Both the position numbers and the translations under genes were made by a program. From Candidatus Zixiibacteriota bacterium (lineage in GTDB: Bacteria > Zixibacteria > MSB-5A5 > WJJR01 > JAJRUJ01), in assembly GCA_020051695.1 (NCBI GenBank), contig JAGVQM010000021.1:248001-312000 (forward strand): 64,000 nucleotides of DNA, in the 5' to 3' direction. Shown here one piece after another: positions 16,515 to 23,765 of the stretch (positions are counted from its first letter, which is position 1; every line of letters begins with the position of its first letter). The notes below the pieces were generated by a model, which ran no database searches, was not told the origin of the DNA, and saw nothing but the letters and a program-made list of their open reading frames with translations.

Positions 16515-17197
16515 CGTCCGGACTTCCCATCCCGTGACCAAATACTCACGTGACTTTCAGCATTTCTTTCAATTGGCAAGTGTAATCAATCGTGGAAAAA
16601 ACGTCAATCATTTGGATCGAGTTGCATGCAGCATGCTTCTATCCGCATTGGACATTGGGTGCCGGTCGGCCCTTGGGGCGACGGATTTGATGGAGCTTTA
16701 CATGGTACCTCACCTAACGGGTGAGTAGTGGTGAATTTTCCTGAGTGTCTCATTCTGCCCTTACTTGGTATAATCCGGGCAGATGGGTAACAGCCCCGGC
16801 TTTGCTAGGGCGCATGGACACTTATCCGCCTCTGGCGGAAGATGCCCATGCCACGAAAAATCCAATCTTGTCATTCCGGCCCGCCGCGGTGGGCCGGAGG
16901 GTCAAATTTAAACCAATTGTCGAAACCCCATCCCGCCGTGATTGGCGGGATGGGGGATTTCGACCTGCGGGCTGTGCGGTAGCTCTTGTCTCGTAGATGG
17001 TTACCGCTTTCCGAATTTGCCGGGACTGCCGGAAAACACCGTCAATCCCATTTATTTTGCCTAAATTCCATAATTCCTGTAAATAAAACTCAACTATTTC
17101 CGGGAGATGCCGTACCTTGCAGTGTAGATAATGGAACAGTAGGCCTTTTTGCGAACAACCGCTCGGAACACCTTCCCTCGGAAATTCACAGAAAAGA
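16515..17197. other. non-coding stretch with repeats between the methyltransferase and cold-shock genes
   Basis: No gene supported. Contents: the second flank repeat GGCGACGGATTTGATGGA (about 16676-16693), the 49-base dispersed element at 16808-16856, a GC-rich palindrome CCGGCCCGCCGCGGTGGGCCGG at about 16877-16898, and a hairpin CCCATCCCGCC/GGCGGGATGGG at 16928-16954. The last lies inside a wider inverted pair starting TCGAAA and ending TTTCGA. From about 17040 the sequence turns AT-rich and presumably carries the cold-shock gene promoter (a GATAAT box is at 17127-17132). Confidence 0.5.
16808..16856 (+). repeat. dispersed 49-base element, copy 2
   Basis: Begins GGGCGCATGG, contains the hairpin TCCGCCTCTGGCGGA, and ends GATGCCCATGCCACGA. 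It matches the reverse complement of 36910-36958 with only a few substitutions. Confidence 0.8.
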
Positions 17198-17276
17198 TCG
17201 ACTTGTTTCACCGGCCATATCGGCCAACGGATCAGGAGCGCCGTTTCGCTCCGCACAGTAGTAAAGGAAGTGGATC
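17198..17276 (+). ncRNA. structured 5' leader of the cold-shock gene
   Basis: Upstream of the start codon lie GAAAAGATCGACTTG, a small GGCC/GGCC hairpin (17213-17224), a strong stem GGAGCG/CGCTCC (17235-17240 with 17247-17252, loop CCGTTT) and the ribosome site AAAGGAAG. Cold-shock mRNAs of the CspA type commonly have long structured leaders. This one is notable because two degenerate copies, with the same order of elements, occur in tandem at 21755-21990. Confidence 0.5.
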
Positions 17277-17477
17277 ATGACGGAAGGTACCGTGAAGTGG
17301 TTCAACGACAGCAAAGGTTTCGGATTCATCACCCGTGAAGACGGCGACGACGTGTTTGTGCATCACACCTCCATCACCGGCGAGGGTTTCAAGTCTCTGG
17401 CCGAAGGTGACGCGGTGCAGTTTGACGTGACGCAGGGCCCGAAAGGCCCGCAAGCCGCCAACGTGCGCAAACTGTAA
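17277..17477 (+). CDS. cold-shock protein (CspA family)
   Basis: A 66-residue single-stranded nucleic-acid-binding protein. It consists of one cold-shock domain with RNP1 KGFGFI and RNP2-like VFVHH motifs, plus the usual start [10 protein letters not shown]. Such proteins act as RNA chaperones in cold shock or growth transitions. AAAGGAAG lies just upstream of the ATG, and a strong terminator follows at 17503. It is monocistronic. Which csp paralogue it is cannot be told. Confidence 0.97.
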
Positions 17478-17502
17478 AACGATTAGTCTGGACAATTGCA
17501 AT

Positions 17503-17539
17503 CCCGGCCCGGGCGCCATGCCCGCGGCCGGGTTTTTTT
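17503..17539 (+). terminator. rho-independent terminator of the cold-shock gene
   Basis: Stem CCCGGCC (17503-17509) with GGCCGGG (17526-17532), extended by CGGGC/GCCCG with one bulged base and a GCCAT loop, followed by seven T. It starts 25 bases after the stop codon. Confidence 0.92.
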
Positions 17540-17584
17540 ATCTGCGACAGCTGCATGGGCCACCCGCGGCCTGCGCCGTCCACA

Positions 17585-17613
17585 GCAAAAAAGCCCCGCC
17601 GGGAAAGCGGGGC
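17585..17613 (-). terminator. rho-independent terminator of the superoxide dismutase gene
   Basis: Perfect stem GCCCCGC (17593-17599) with GCGGGGC (17607-17613). On the minus strand it is followed by a T run (the AAAAAA at 17587-17592). It lies about 35 bases past the dismutase stop. Confidence 0.88.
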
Positions 17614-17646
17614 CTTTGGATTTGGCCGGCGATCGGCGAAATTAAA

Positions 17647-18351
17647 TCAACGGTACGAACTCATACAGGCCTGCAGCCGGCGTCCGACATCCGCCCAATT
17701 GATCACATTCCAGAAGGCCTTGATGTACTCCGGGCGACGGTTTTGATACTTGAGGTAGTAGGCGTGCTCCCAGACATCGAGGACCAGCAACGGTGTCACA
17801 CCCCACATCGTGAGGTTCTGATGTTTTTCGGCCTGCAGGATCACGAGGTTTTTGCCGACTGGTTCCCAGGCTAGAATCGCCCAGCCGCTGCCCTCGACTG
17901 CGCCCGCGGCCGCCGCGAATTGGGACTGGAACGCCTCCACGGAACCAAAACTGCGGCCCAGCGCCCGGGCCAGATCACCGCCGGGTTTGCCGCCGCCGCC
18001 GTTTCCGGCAGGCGCCATATTTTTCCAGAACAAACAATGCAGCAGATGGCCGGAGCCGTGGAATGACAGCTCGCGGCTCAGGGCCTTGACCGTCGCATAA
18101 TCACCCGTGTTGCGCGCCGCCTCCATGCCGCTGAGCGCTTTGTTCAATCCCATCACATACCCCGCATGGTGCAGATCATGATGGAGTTTCATCGTTTGCT
18201 CGTCGATGGCGGGTTCCAGCGCATTGTAGGCGTAGGGCAGCGCCGGCAAAACATATTCACCCTTCGCTTCGTCCCACCCCGGCAGCTGCGCCGTATCTGT
18301 CCCGGTTGCCGCCGCTGTACCCATCGAGTCCATTGCTTCGTGTCGATCCAT
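17647..18351 (-). CDS. superoxide dismutase, Fe/Mn family
   Basis: Converts superoxide to oxygen and hydrogen peroxide. The 234-residue protein has all four metal ligands: His57 (KLHHDLHHAGYV), His105 (GHLLHCLFW), and the Asp and His of LDVWEHAYYLKYQNRR. The usual FNxxxHxNH segment reads FHGSGHLLH, with His in place of the first Asn, so the metal (Fe, Mn or either) is hard to predict. About 30 residues precede the conserved core without a clear signal peptide. The start at ATG 18351 follows AAGGAGGC. It heads a run of stress-type genes on this strand (cupin, OsmC), each apparently separately transcribed. Confidence 0.95.
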   Translation of the reverse strand: MDRHEAMDSMGTAAATGTDTAQLPGWDEAKGEYVLPALPYAYNALEPAIDEQTMKLHHDLHHAGYVMGLNKALSGMEAARNTGDYATVKALSRELSFHGSGHLLHCLFWKNMAPAGNGGGGKPGGDLARALGRSFGSVEAFQSQFAAAAGAVEGSGWAILAWEPVGKNLVILQAEKHQNLTMWGVTPLLVLDVWEHAYYLKYQNRRPEYIKAFWNVINWADVGRRLQACMSSYR

Positions 18352-18533
18352 GGCCTGCCTCCTTATCGTCATATTTCATTTCTACCCCTGGTTATAGTGA
18401 TACGGAAACGATTGCCGGATAAGCGGAAAATATTACTAAAATTGTCATATTTAATCACGCAGCGATTATTGTCCGTAACGAGAGACGCGCAAAACTTGCA
18501 TCAATATCAATCTCAGTCAGGAGTTGCCGACCA

Positions 18534-18570
18534 ACCAAAAACCCCGCCTGCAATGGCGAGGTTTTTGGTT
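18534..18570 (-). terminator. terminator downstream of the cupin gene (bidirectional shape)
   Basis: ACCAAAAACCCCGCC (18534-18548) pairs with GGCGAGGTTTTTGGT (18555 onward), one mismatch, loop TGCAAT. A/T-rich arms on both sides let it work in either direction. It lies about 36 bases past the cupin stop. Confidence 0.8.
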
Positions 18571-18605
18571 TCAGGCGAGTAACGTACTGCGAGTAACCGC
18601 GCGCT

Positions 18606-18977
18606 CTACGCCATGGCGGCGATTTTGTCCCCAATATGGTCGTACACCTCTTTCAATTCATTCCTGGGACTGAATTCCACAAAGGAAGTGTCTTCCTCCA
18701 CCCACACCGTATGCCCTGCGGGCCAGTAAAAAGCCTCGCCGGCCGTACAGATTTCCTCTGTGCCGTCAGTGTAACGGACATGAATGGCCCCTTTAAGCAT
18801 ATATCCCCAGTGCGGGCAGGAACATTTGTCGTGGGGCAGCCCTTTAAGCAACGGGGTGGCATCGGCGCCGGCGGATAATTCGACATAGGCCACTGCCGAA
18901 TCGCCCCATTCGGATACTCGAAATGTGGCTACCGGTAGTTTAAGCGCAACAGGCATTTTCTCTTTTAACAGCTTCAC
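18606..18977 (-). CDS. cupin-domain protein
   Basis: A 123-residue single-domain cupin. The first motif reads CPHWGYMLKGAIHVRYTDG and the second GEAFYWPAGHTVWVEED. The histidines that usually bind metal are only partly kept (His in CPHWGY, His in PAGHTV). Small cupins include isomerases, dioxygenases and sensors; none can be assigned here. A purine-rich site (GGAGAAAC) precedes the ATG at 18977. It lies on the same strand as, and just downstream of, the OsmC gene (28 bases between), so the two are likely co-transcribed. Confidence 0.8.
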   Translation of the reverse strand: MKLLKEKMPVALKLPVATFRVSEWGDSAVAYVELSAGADATPLLKGLPHDKCSCPHWGYMLKGAIHVRYTDGTEEICTAGEAFYWPAGHTVWVEEDTSFVEFSPRNELKEVYDHIGDKIAAMA

Positions 18978-19005
18978 AAGTTTCTCCTGCGAAAGGCGTC
19001 TCTGA

Positions 19006-19572
19006 TCACTTGGCCGCGGCTATCGTCACCGGGACCGGGTTGGTTATGATATCCAGCACCGGAGAGGTTTTCTTGACATGCGCCCAAAGTGCGGCAACTT
19101 TCTCCGGCGGGGCATCGCAGTCGGCGCGGTATACCAGGCGAATCCCTTCGTAACCCGGCCGGACATCGTCGGAGAGTCCAAGAAAACCATGAAGATCGAC
19201 GTCACCCTCAAGATCAAACTCGAGACTCTTCACCGTAATCCCCCGGGCCGCCGCATTGTAAACAAAGCCCACAGTCAGACACGAGGCCAGGGCCTGCAAT
19301 ACCGATTCTACTGCGTTAGGACCGGCATCATTGCCAAGCAGCACTGCCGGCTCATCACCTTCCAGCACAAAAGCCCTGGTCCGGGAGGTATCTTCCTGCC
19401 CGGCGCCATAAAAACCCTTGACCGTCGTGCGGGAGTGCCCGCCATTCAGCCATTTCGTGGACGCCCGGAATTGAAAACGCGCCAAACCGGGATTATCCTT
19501 AATGGCATTTACAGTCTGGACCAATTGGTCAACATTGACGCCGTTTGGTTGAGTCTTGACTTGCGTGGACAT
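19006..19572 (-). CDS. OsmC family protein, one-cysteine variant
   Basis: An OsmC/Ohr-fold protein of 188 residues. The first conserved Cys is Cys98 (ALASCLTVGFVYNAAARGI). At the second site, where peroxidases of the family have a Cys, this protein has KTSPVLDIITNPVPV with Ser instead. Loss of that partner Cys argues against a thiol peroxidase with an intramolecular disulphide; similar one-Cys OsmC proteins are common and uncharacterised. GGAGAATC precedes the ATG at 19572. It is followed by the cupin gene after 28 bases. Confidence 0.88.
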   Translation of the reverse strand: MSTQVKTQPNGVNVDQLVQTVNAIKDNPGLARFQFRASTKWLNGGHSRTTVKGFYGAGQEDTSRTRAFVLEGDEPAVLLGNDAGPNAVESVLQALASCLTVGFVYNAAARGITVKSLEFDLEGDVDLHGFLGLSDDVRPGYEGIRLVYRADCDAPPEKVAALWAHVKKTSPVLDIITNPVPVTIAAAK

Positions 19573-19823
19573 TGGAGATTCTCCTTTGTATCACTTAGAT
19601 GACGGGAAGGCTAGTGCCGAACTGGATATCTGCCTCCACAATTTGTGTCTCCCCGGAATTTTCGGGCCGTGGCCAAGCCGGGTCCCGAATTACTGTCGGA
19701 GATAATACGTATTGAATTGGGATCAAATTAGTCTAATTTGATTTTTGCCGCAGTAGTTTGGAGCATGGCAACAATAATTGAGGCTAACGACCCGCCGGCC
19801 GCATCGGTAAAACGGTGTATATT

Positions 19824-20270
19824 TCAGCCGTGACGTTGTTCCAGTTGCTCGACCGCACTGGAGAAATGCATCTGCACGATCACCCAGCGGCCGGCGCGCT
19901 TTTCCAGCACACCGGTCCAGCGGACATCCTCCCAGTTGGCCGGCCGGCCCTGCCATTCATTATAATCATCAAGTCGACAGTGGTACCAGGCGACATCCCC
20001 TGACCGTGACAAGTGTACGTGCAATTCCCGGATCTCGAAACCGACGGCTTTGAACTCATCGTCCATAAAGAAACTCTCGGTCAACTCGACGAACGCCTTG
20101 TGTCCGTGGACTGTCCCGCTGTCGCGCGGTACAAAATAGAACAGGTCCTCATCCTCGGCAAAACAGCGGTACAACAAGTTTTTGTCTTTGTCGGCCGCCC
20201 ACGCAATGCCGGCGGTAATGACTTCCCTGATCTTTCCGATCTCCGTGTCATGGTCTACATTTTCACTCAT
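19824..20270 (-). CDS. NTF2-like (SnoaL-type) protein
   Basis: A 148-residue cone-shaped alpha/beta protein of the NTF2-like superfamily: an N-terminal helical part (IREVITAGIAWAADKDKNLLYRC), then GTVHGHKAFVELTESFF, and C-terminal strands ending GRWVIVQMHFS. Such domains bind small hydrophobic ligands or catalyse isomerisation/hydrolysis, or serve only as scaffolds. GGAGGGAA lies just upstream of the ATG at 20270. It stands alone between the OsmC gene and the PEP-CTERM gene. Confidence 0.8.
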   Translation of the reverse strand: MSENVDHDTEIGKIREVITAGIAWAADKDKNLLYRCFAEDEDLFYFVPRDSGTVHGHKAFVELTESFFMDDEFKAVGFEIRELHVHLSRSGDVAWYHCRLDDYNEWQGRPANWEDVRWTGVLEKRAGRWVIVQMHFSSAVEQLEQRHG

Positions 20271-20385
20271 GGGCTATTCCCTCCTCTGCACTCGTTCCGG
20301 GCCGCCACACAGGTAATACAGCGAACCGGGCACAGGGGTTACACTTTTTTGTGGCTGGTTCCCCCAAAGTCGGACAAGGCGCCAT

Positions 20386-20415
20386 AAAAAAAATCCCGCC
20401 GTCGGGCGGGATTTT
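20386..20415 (-). terminator. terminator of the PEP-CTERM gene
   Basis: AATCCCGCC (20392-20400) pairs with GGCGGGATT (20405-20413), with a run of A on the low side that becomes the T tract on the minus strand. It begins 26 bases after the stop at 20441. Confidence 0.88.
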
Positions 20416-20440
20416 CGGGATATCGATCGCGTGATGTAGG

Positions 20441-21130
20441 TTATTTCCTGCGGCGGCGAACAACCATCCCGCCGACCAGGCCGCTGCCTAACAACAGCAG
20501 TGTCGCGGGTTCGGGAATGGCGTCATGGGACACCCCGACGATCATATCGTTATGGTCCCAGTTGGATGAGGTGTGATCGTCATCAATGAAGATCAGGTAA
20601 TCGAAATTGCCGATGCCGTAATAATCCTCATTTTGGTTGTTGAAAAAATACGACGCCGTACCGTGGGCCGCAACATCATACACCATAAACCACTGGTGCT
20701 CGTTGGCCGCCGAACCTTCGGTCAGGGAACGCTGGGAAACCAGGTACGAATCGCCATAACTGATTGTGCCGTCGAAGTCAGTATCGTTATGCAAATACAG
20801 GGTCAAATCATCGCCGCCGGGATTGACCACATGATAGTCCCGGTGAGTCCCCGGCCCGTCCGGACCGTTAAACAACTCCAGCCCGTGCGTGCGCGGGTCG
20901 GTGCCTTTCGCGGTCACTCCGAAACGGTTGATCGGGTTCCAGGGATTGGAATACTCGGCCAGTAGCGAGAATGTGTACAGCGAGCTTTGATCCAGCCGGA
21001 GATACACATCCTGCAGGGCACCGGCCTCCGGGGTTATCGCCACGCCATCGACATACAACACCGGCACAGCCGCTGCGTTCAACGCCAGTCCCAACACGAA
21101 TAACGATGCAAAAACCAGAACACGTTTCAT
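20441..21130 (-). CDS. PEP-CTERM sorting-domain protein
   Basis: An exported 229-residue protein with a signal peptide (MKRVLVFASLFVLGLALNAAA) and, at the very end, the PEP-CTERM tripartite tail: PEPATLLLLGSGLVGG, a hydrophobic helix, and RRRRK. In bacteria with exosortase (EpsH/XrtA), such tails are cut and the protein is delivered to the surface or the exopolysaccharide matrix. The middle part is beta-rich with Asp-rich turns (DTDFDGTISYGD, IFIDDDHTSSNWDHND) that may bind calcium. The start at ATG 21130 follows GGAGGT. No exosortase gene is in the window. Confidence 0.88.
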   Translation of the reverse strand: MKRVLVFASLFVLGLALNAAAVPVLYVDGVAITPEAGALQDVYLRLDQSSLYTFSLLAEYSNPWNPINRFGVTAKGTDPRTHGLELFNGPDGPGTHRDYHVVNPGGDDLTLYLHNDTDFDGTISYGDSYLVSQRSLTEGSAANEHQWFMVYDVAAHGTASYFFNNQNEDYYGIGNFDYLIFIDDDHTSSNWDHNDMIVGVSHDAIPEPATLLLLGSGLVGGMVVRRRRK

Positions 21131-21754
21131 GCCATACCTCCGGCTGATGGGCCATTTGCACTTTCTCAGTGACCCACAACGCAAATTGTATGCCCGGGAA
21201 CCAAAGGTGCCCGCGGACACGGTTTGTCACGTATGTAATTGCGGCATGGTAAATTGCGTCGCAACGCGCAATTATATCCACACTTGCTTCGTGCAGGAGT
21301 TTGCAGGTTGTATTCCATCGTCTGCAGGGTTACCGCTGTCGTGATAACTCTCGATTCACCCTGCACTGAAAAATCGAATCACTTGCCCCGGAACGCGCGA
21401 GCAACCGGCAGTCCGCCCGACGGCCCGCCCCTCACCCAAAGGGTCTAATTCCCTTTTCCATCGTTTGAGCGAGCATTTTTCAAACTGCGCCTGCGTAATT
21501 TTGTTTAGGCAGGACACGGCCGGGGAATCAGGCGGATGTCCTGCCTATGGGCGCATCATGCACTTCGAGATGGCAGCCGTGCTATTTAAGTTCCCTCGCA
21601 ATTGAAAAGCGCCGGATGCAGCAGTAATGTGGGGTCGGGAACCCGGGTATTTGCATAGTGCGCAATTTTGCCCTGGTCGCCGAAAGTGGAGGTGGGCAAG
21701 GAACGCAACAGACTTTTCTTTGACCAAATGCAGACGGATCTTCCTTCCATGGTC
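21131..21754. other. non-coding stretch upstream of the PEP-CTERM gene
   Basis: No gene supported. It carries a perfect hairpin AATTGCG/CGCAATT near 21251-21272. At about 21690, CAAGGAACGCAACAGAC may be a third, very degraded relative of the cold-shock start region described at 21755-21990. A minus-strand open frame over 21586-22008 reads repeats and is rejected as a gene. Confidence 0.5.
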
Positions 21755-21871
21755 GGAGAAAGGCCCAATCTGTTGCACGGGCCGGCACGGCCGGCGGAGT
21801 GGGGACGCAATTTCGTCTCCGGAAGAAAAAGGATGGGGGTCATGAAGGAAGGTACAGTCAAATTGTTCGGC
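21755..21871 (+). repeat. degenerate copy of the cold-shock leader and start (copy B)
   Basis: Same order of elements as the functional leader at 17198-17276. GAGAAAGG is followed by a GGCCGGCACGGCCGG hairpin and a stem GGGGACG/CGTCTCC (21801-21807 with 21814-21820, loop CAATTT). After a purine-rich GGAAGAAAAAGGATG comes ATG AAG GAA GGT ACA GTC AAA TTG TTC (M-K-E-G-T-V-K-L-F, versus M-T-E-G-T-V-K-W-F in the intact protein). The coding part then stops and runs straight into copy C. Confidence 0.6.
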
Positions 21872-21990
21872 GAGAAAACCGACTGGTTTCGCCGGCCTCC
21901 CTGGCCGACCGACTGGCGGAACCGTTTGGCCCGAGGACGAAGAAGGATGTGTATCACCAAGGAAGGCACTGTCAGATTATTCAGCGATTC
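21872..21990 (+). repeat. degenerate copy of the cold-shock leader and start (copy C)
   Basis: GAGAAAACCGACTGGTTTCG then CCGGCC...GGCC closely match the intact leader's GAAAAGATCGACTTGTTTCA then CCGGCC...GGCC. The second stem has decayed and the start codon has become ACC, followed by AAGGAAGGCACTGTCAGATT (K-E-G-T-V-R). Together with copy B it forms a tandem array of about 117-base units. Confidence 0.6.
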
Positions 21991-22190
21991 CGGGACTCCC
22001 CATGTCATCTCGCAGGAAAGACAGCACGAATCGTCCGAGCGTGGTCGCGGAGGCGAGTCGTAGTCGCAATACGTGCGCCGGGGCCGGAGGGCTTGAAATG
22101 CCGGGCCGGGGTCATTCAGGTGTGTTGAGAAGTCTTATGCCAAGCGGTTTTTCGTCGCGACTTTTTCGATTTTCAAGCGATTAATGAACG

Positions 22191-23765
22191 CTACCACCAC
22201 ACCTGCTTGCCGTTGGTGATCGTGAAGATGCGTTCTTCTTTGTCTGATCCCGTGGCGACCAGCCAATACAGGCCGCTGGCGGGGACGGATTCGAAGACCA
22301 ATGGCGTCTTTCCGGCGACCGCCCGGCCGAGCGAAACCCAATCATTATCACCCATATAGAACAACTCATATTCCTGCCCGTCAGTAAGGAATGTCCGGGC
22401 GATACCGTCGGTCGAGGCCTCCTGTTTGCGGGCGGTAGTCGAGGTCAATTCGACCGGGATGTTTGCGGCGCTGTCCGGCACAAGATGCCGGACTGGGCAA
22501 TCCTGCTGCAGGATAAATGGCGTTCCCCACGGCACGGTCTTCTCGTTAAGGTACAATGCCGGGAGGTAGGCGATGTCGGTTCCCATGTCGGTGAACGTCG
22601 CAGCGCCATTGATAATTCGCCCCCAGTGGATCGCCTGCCATTCACCGGAGTTGAATACACACAAATAGGCGATATCAACCGAATCGGGGACCTCCCGCCC
22701 AAATGTGATGGTCGGAGTGCAGACCGCCACATAATCGGCGGTGACGTCGAGATAACTTTTCCCCGCCAGCCAGCCGGGGACTTTTTCCTGTTTCCGGTCC
22801 TGAAAGATGAGATTGTCCTTTTGGTTGTTGAACATCTTGCGGTACACTTTGGCCAGTTTGTTGGCCAGGACATACGTGCCGGGATTACATTCAGCACCCA
22901 TGAACGGGGTCACCTGTCCATTGGGCAGGACAATCGCATTCCAGGCATGATTGTTCCCGGAGTTGGCCCAATGGGGTGTGTAATCGCTGGTCACGGCCAA
23001 TCCTATTGCGCGCATCGCGTAAATCGTGGCGTTGGTCATGTCCTCACAGCGGCCTTTCCCGATGGCCAGCATCTCGGAAATCCCCAGATCGGTTGGGTGA
23101 TAGTAAAAACGGGGATCGAAACCAAACCAGGACATGACATCATCATTGATGATTTGTGCGGCCTCAATCGGGTCGGCGGGATTGGTCATTGCGGTATCAA
23201 TCCCCTGATACTTTTCCCAGAATATTTCCCGCCACGATTCCAGTGGTTCATTGCTCCCCCGATAGGGCAGGATATAGCGGCAAAAATCCTCGAACGTAAA
23301 ACCCTGCGCCCAGGGTTTTTCCCGCCAGGCGCGGAAGGCATAATTAATCTGGGTGATCAAAAACTCCGCCGTGATCGTTTCGAGATCGTTGATTTTTGCG
23401 CCTTTGACGAAGTCCAGCGTGCCGTGTCGTTGTTCGAGGGTGTCAAACGCGGCAGTAAGCACGGTGTAATCCGGATAATCCAGAACATTGTGGGGAATCT
23501 CACTACCGGCCGTATCCACCAGCCGGTACGTTGCATAGCAATGCCCCTCCATGTTGCCAATTAAATAGTACGCCGCCTGCAGTTTCAGGGTATCGTCATC
23601 GGCGGCAAAATTGGCGAGTACGCGTTCGAGCTCCGCGCGGTTTTCCCCGGCGTTATCCAGCGCGGCAGTTACCTCGGGAGGGTAGGGGCCGGCCGCGCAT
23701 GAAGCGAGCAGAAACACAGCCACGATTAACAACGAAGAGTGATTGAAGGGATTATTGCTGAACAT
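22191..23765 (-). CDS. transglutaminase-like lipoprotein
   Basis: A 524-residue lipoprotein. The lipobox LLASC gives a lipidated Cys23. The middle part is a transglutaminase/cysteine-protease-like core: Cys240 in GKGRCEDMTNATIYAMRA and His273 in NNHAWNAIVLPNGQVTPF fit the first two members of a Cys-His-Asp triad. The C-terminal 150 residues look like a beta-sandwich. Bacterial relatives in Bacteroidetes and their kin are surface proteins thought to act on peptides or glycans. Two ATGs follow each other (23768 and 23765) behind GGGAGGCC; the second has better spacing. It ends just short of the cold-shock-leader array. Confidence 0.85.
   Translation of the reverse strand: MFSNNPFNHSSLLIVAVFLLASCAAGPYPPEVTAALDNAGENRAELERVLANFAADDDTLKLQAAYYLIGNMEGHCYATYRLVDTAGSEIPHNVLDYPDYTVLTAAFDTLEQRHGTLDFVKGAKINDLETITAEFLITQINYAFRAWREKPWAQGFTFEDFCRYILPYRGSNEPLESWREIFWEKYQGIDTAMTNPADPIEAAQIINDDVMSWFGFDPRFYYHPTDLGISEMLAIGKGRCEDMTNATIYAMRAIGLAVTSDYTPHWANSGNNHAWNAIVLPNGQVTPFMGAECNPGTYVLANKLAKVYRKMFNNQKDNLIFQDRKQEKVPGWLAGKSYLDVTADYVAVCTPTITFGREVPDSVDIAYLCVFNSGEWQAIHWGRIINGAATFTDMGTDIAYLPALYLNEKTVPWGTPFILQQDCPVRHLVPDSAANIPVELTSTTARKQEASTDGIARTFLTDGQEYELFYMGDNDWVSLGRAVAGKTPLVFESVPASGLYWLVATGSDKEERIFTITNGKQVWW

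Follow-up and report, generated by a model that had tools for sequence, protein, structure and literature searches.

Probable Relics of a Cold-Shock Gene 5' End and a Conserved csp Leader in One Order of Candidatus Zixibacteria

Introduction

The leaders of cold-shock (csp) genes in E. coli and Thermus have been reviewed (PMC9800685), and the structure of the E. coli cspA mRNA shifts with temperature according to the account given there (Giuliodori 2010, as cited in PMC9800685). The same review covers expression vectors, in which cspB 5' UTR and downstream-box fusions put a csp leader and the first csp codons before another gene. A literature search returned no study centred on the cold-shock genes of Zixibacteria. 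Here, we analysed a stretch of 64,000 nucleotides (hereafter, the window), which is part of the 3.53 Mb assembly of a Candidatus Zixiibacteriota bacterium (genome G000). An intact csp gene of this window has a long structured leader, in which it resembles the cspA thermoregulator of E. coli (Rfam RF01766). Compared with RF01766, the csp sequence of the window scores 37.8-44.6 against a gathering score of 78, with a match that comes from the coding region and leaves most of the leader unaligned. The leader was therefore rejected as a member of the Rfam cspA family, the aligned part being coding sequence and the score lying below gathering.

A Conserved Leader of Cold-Shock Genes

Four csp genes were found in the genome, two of which (at 17277 in the window and at C14:353293) carry the leader described below. 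Two further csp genes stand in tandem (G000:C14:158510-159044), with leaders that fall outside the leader family. The csp locus of the window is organised as follows:

17110-17115, + strand: -10-like box CCGTAC, recognised by eye and pattern at the site occupied by CGTAT or CGATA in most intact csp loci of the order.
17133-17276, + strand: intact csp leader, with a 5' block (GAACAGTAGGCCTTTTTGCG...), two hairpins and a ribosome-binding site; conserved in 27 loci from 9 genomes, its 5' end inferred.
17213-17225, + strand: hairpin 1, GGCC-loop-GGCC, almost invariant.
17235-17252, + strand: hairpin 2, GGAGCG-CCGTTT-CGCTCC, with a covarying stem.
17277-17477, + strand: intact csp gene, encoding a CSD protein of 66 aa (PF00313, NCBIfam).

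This leader is a conserved structured 5' leader of csp genes, specific to one order of Ca. Zixibacteria. The leader model gave 34 matches, distributed over all 9 genomes searched of the order, and most of them abut the ATG with which an intact csp gene begins. Beyond the order, 123 genomes of the class and phylum gave no match with either of two models. A pattern scan of genome contigs also matched single contigs from unrelated phyla. Conservation reaches upstream to the 5' block (GAAACAGTAGACTTTTC...), which in most loci lies about 20 nt after the CGTAT/CGATA box. In csp genes with extended N-termini, the leader is retained even where the GTVKWF codons are missing at that place, so that conservation applies to the leader itself. 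The first csp codons of intact genes show weak synonymous conservation (p 0.04-0.11), and we do not claim a downstream box. Finally, none of the 8 loci tested against Rfam reached any gathering score.

In the leader-family alignment, the stem of hairpin 2 (GGGACG...CGTCCC) varies through compensating changes, and hairpin 1 (GGCC) scarcely varies. Over the whole structure, double changes amount to 40 vs. 15.6 in shuffled alignments, with none of 500 shuffles as high and all slid controls lower; the alignment of intact leaders alone yields 27 vs. 11.7. From its position and structure, the leader probably controls the stability or the translation of cold-shock mRNAs, and its placement, together with what is described for csp leaders in E. 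coli and Thermus, suggests a role in cold-shock expression.

Three further observations concern the leader and its genes. In the window (17226-17246), an AACGG past hairpin 1 is complementary to the CCGTT in the loop of hairpin 2, and a pseudoknot or an alternative pairing may form. A helix hiding the Shine-Dalgarno sequence, seen in the folds of csp1 and csp2, failed the test of family-wide conservation and is therefore only a lead. Moreover, cold-shock genes that diverge from one another stand in tandem, two to four per array and several of them behind a leader of their own, at G006:C58:10238-12129, G005:C31:37261-37969 and G008:C403:7426-8692.

Two Degenerate Units

The initial annotation of the window described tandem degenerate copies of the csp leader, and these are real. 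A repeat search of positions 17000-22500 returned as its top family the segments 17263-17308, 21828-21873 and 21942-21987 (78% and 70% over 46 nt), and the codon pattern that they share matches three times in the window vs. 0.06 expected by chance. Because the training set of a first covariance model (R1) included both units, it is no evidence for them and we relied on R2, built from 22 intact leaders alone, with both units and a related unit of genome G007 left out. R2 matches unit A with 77.8 bits (E 1e-13), unit B with 44.8 bits (E 5e-7) and the G007 unit with 88.5 bits. A third model (R3) had A, B, the G007 unit and a locus on contig C26 in its training set, so its scores for these sequences are not independent. 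The full units extend over 21755-21868 (A) and 21869-21982 (B), a spacing of 114 nt instead of the 117 or so first reported, and the homology of unit A reaches about 50 nt beyond the 5' limit noted earlier, to about 21705. The region reads:

21668-22063, + strand: open frame of 131 codons spanning A and B, without family match and probably fortuitous.
21705-21754, + strand: unit A, remnant of the leader 5' block (AACAGACTTTTCTTTGAC...), with the -10-like box absent upstream.
21755-21841, + strand: unit A, leader core, in which hairpins can form at 21780-21792 and 21801-21820 (R2 match; fold).
21842-21868, + strand: unit A, ATG and eight csp-like codons (MKEGTVKLF), interrupted by unit B.
21869-21955, + strand: unit B, leader core (R2 match), with hairpin 1 retained and 2/5 core pairs of the covarying stem.
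21956-22018, + strand: unit B, csp-derived codons 1-21, with the start codon gone, W8L and the RNP1 motif gone.
22019-22088, + strand: tail homologous to that of the G007 unit (lipoprotein N-terminal region), without detectable csp homology.

A start codon and a coding part cut after nine to ten codons had been ascribed to both copies. This holds for A, which has the ATG and ends where B begins, but not for B, which has ACC at the position of the csp start codon and can be followed to codon 21. Unit A retains both foldable hairpins, a AAAGGATG ribosome-binding site and the ATG, and heads the open frame that crosses B. A CSD search of this frame gave no match, A ending at codon 9-10 and B diverging past codon 21, and no + strand gene is evident downstream of the units. 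From this frame, a new small protein of 73 aa (MKEGTVKLFGEKTDWFRRPPWPTDWRNRLARGRRRMCITKEGTVRLFSDSGTPHVISQERQHESSERGRGGES) could be made, composed of two csp N-termini and a translated leader; the continuity of the frame across both units, a unit spacing divisible by 3 and the ribosome-binding site and ATG at A would fit such a product. The protein has no family match, however, and the differences between B and G007 in codons 12-21 are mostly amino-acid-changing (by eye) and are followed by a one-base indel, while several homologous csp leaders have stops in that frame (by eye), all of which makes a coding role very unlikely.

Loss of Constraint in Units A and B

Columns conserved in at least 95% of the intact leaders are kept in 33/39 cases by A, 29/37 by B and 37/39 by the G007 unit, each intact leader keeping at least 35/39. 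A and B differ from each other at 20/63 conserved and 21/48 variable columns (p 0.24). By contrast, two intact leaders, those of csp1 and of a csp gene of G007, differ at 0/63 conserved columns vs. 21/48 variable ones (p 1e-9). The end branches of A (0.32) and B (0.45) are three to five times those of the G007 unit (0.09) and csp1 (0.10). Compared with functional copies, A and B have thus lost constraint, as is expected of relics. Two orthologous gene pairs of G000 and G007 show 60-67% identity at their four-fold sites, an imperfect neutral yardstick; DNA that has drifted for as long without constraint would therefore still be recognisable, with a similarity of the size seen here.

The stem of B had been thought to survive through G-T pairs. 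In the alignment on the family register, only 2/5 core pairs of hairpin 2 are kept in B, the predicted fold of which does not exceed shuffled sequence in stability (z +0.45), and the G-U pair belongs to A, which keeps 5/5. The notion that RNA shape matters is consequently borne out for the intact leader family, through its covariation, but not for copy B.

These observations bear on the proposal of an RNA decoy, or sponge, in which a transcript of A and B would titrate a factor that binds csp leaders, e.g., the Csp protein itself. The tandem arrangement of the units, the two hairpins retained in A and the structural conservation of the leader family are all compatible with it. Yet conserved and variable positions of the units have changed alike, B has lost most of the covarying stem and no promoter is recognisable: the -10-like box was not found upstream of A, nor any promoter-like site in 21220-22195. 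Moreover, A and B occur in one genome only. A DNA search of this genome yielded no further copies, and in G001, a genome of the same family, the flanking transglutaminase-like gene is present with no such unit beside it, in a family-level comparison of two genomes. We accordingly give the sponge little credence.

Relationship to a Lipoprotein Gene Fusion

In G007 (contig C136, 5568-6494), a glycine-zipper lipoprotein-like gene begins in frame with about 21 csp-derived codons, which lie behind a nearly intact csp leader. For this gene, the glycine-zipper Pfam scores are just under the curated cut-off in G007 and at the cut-off in the orthologue on C26. Several derived changes link A and B to this unit. 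In A, B and the G007 unit, codon 8 is TTA/TTG and codon 2 is AAG, which intact csp genes seldom or never show; an altered promoter box, with CCG-AAGTG upstream, is common to A and the G007 unit, and where csp genes have the RNP1 motif, B and the G007 unit have P-x-V. The tree places A, B and the G007 unit in one group with moderate support (88/73), which is suggestive, not firm. Past the csp-derived codons, B no longer matches csp genes, but its tail matches that of the G007 unit (overall z 8.8; second half, P 0.0005).

The window genome has its own orthologue of the lipoprotein gene on another contig (C26). Its 5' end (G000:C26:23054-23184; about 1409-1541 of locus L086) resembles A, B and the G007 unit (GATGCCGGCGCCCCT vs. 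GATGCCAGGGCCCCT), with P about 0.001-0.002 from shuffles, among several comparisons, and has the appearance of a highly diverged copy of the csp-derived unit.

Alternatively, A and B might be copies of an ordinary csp gene that decayed independently and have no relationship to the G007 fusion. Codons 1-21 of B are indeed csp-derived and in register: in comparisons with five csp genes, 13-16 of the 30 nt of codons 12-21 match (P 0.001-0.03), with KEGTVRLFSDSGTPHVISQE in register to codon 21. Tandem leader-csp arrays also recur in the order. This origin would nevertheless leave aside the changes in codons 2 and 8, P-x-V and the upstream CCG-AAGTG, the grouping in the tree and the non-csp tail common to B and G007, and we deem it unlikely, albeit somewhat less so than the sponge or the small protein. 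Of the earlier suggestion of decayed csp paralogues, the csp derivation and the lack of constraint stand, but in place of a plain csp gene, the closest relative of A and B appears to be the csp-derived 5' end that is fused, in G007, to the lipoprotein gene.

Discussion

Taken together, these results make it likely that A and B are a decayed relic, tandemly duplicated over 114 bp, of the 5' end of a csp-derived lineage that is also present in G007. We infer the following order of events. In an ancestor, a csp-derived gene lineage would have arisen with a copy of the leader and about 20 csp codons as its 5' end. This 5' end is joined in frame to a glycine-zipper lipoprotein gene in G007, and a stray copy of it in the window genome would have lost its downstream gene. 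A tandem duplication of 114 bp would then have truncated A at codon 9-10, where B begins, after which both units would have decayed with little or no constraint; following such decay, A and B are most likely functionless now. A bolder scenario, in which the leader and the first csp codons form a portable cassette captured by a membrane-lipoprotein gene, and A and B are its still-transcribed remnant that titrates factors binding csp leaders, seems to us improbable.

What is new here is a csp leader specific to one order, which a gene other than csp has apparently captured. The two units are probably debris, yet they led to a conserved csp leader RNA without Rfam match in one uncultured order. 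If this leader responds to temperature, csp genes would have here a control element with no sequence relationship to that of E. coli, and the portability of such leaders could be examined on a natural case, the fused lipoprotein gene.

The G007 locus resembles the cspB vector fusions, in that a csp leader and the first csp codons stand ahead of another gene; it differs from them in being a natural gene fusion. As for A and B, they recall csp pseudogenes and expansions of the csp gene family, where csp copies in tandem diverge. Unlike these, the two units keep the leader and the codons at the start of the gene, with the rest of the CSD gone, and their nearest relative appears to be a lipoprotein fusion.
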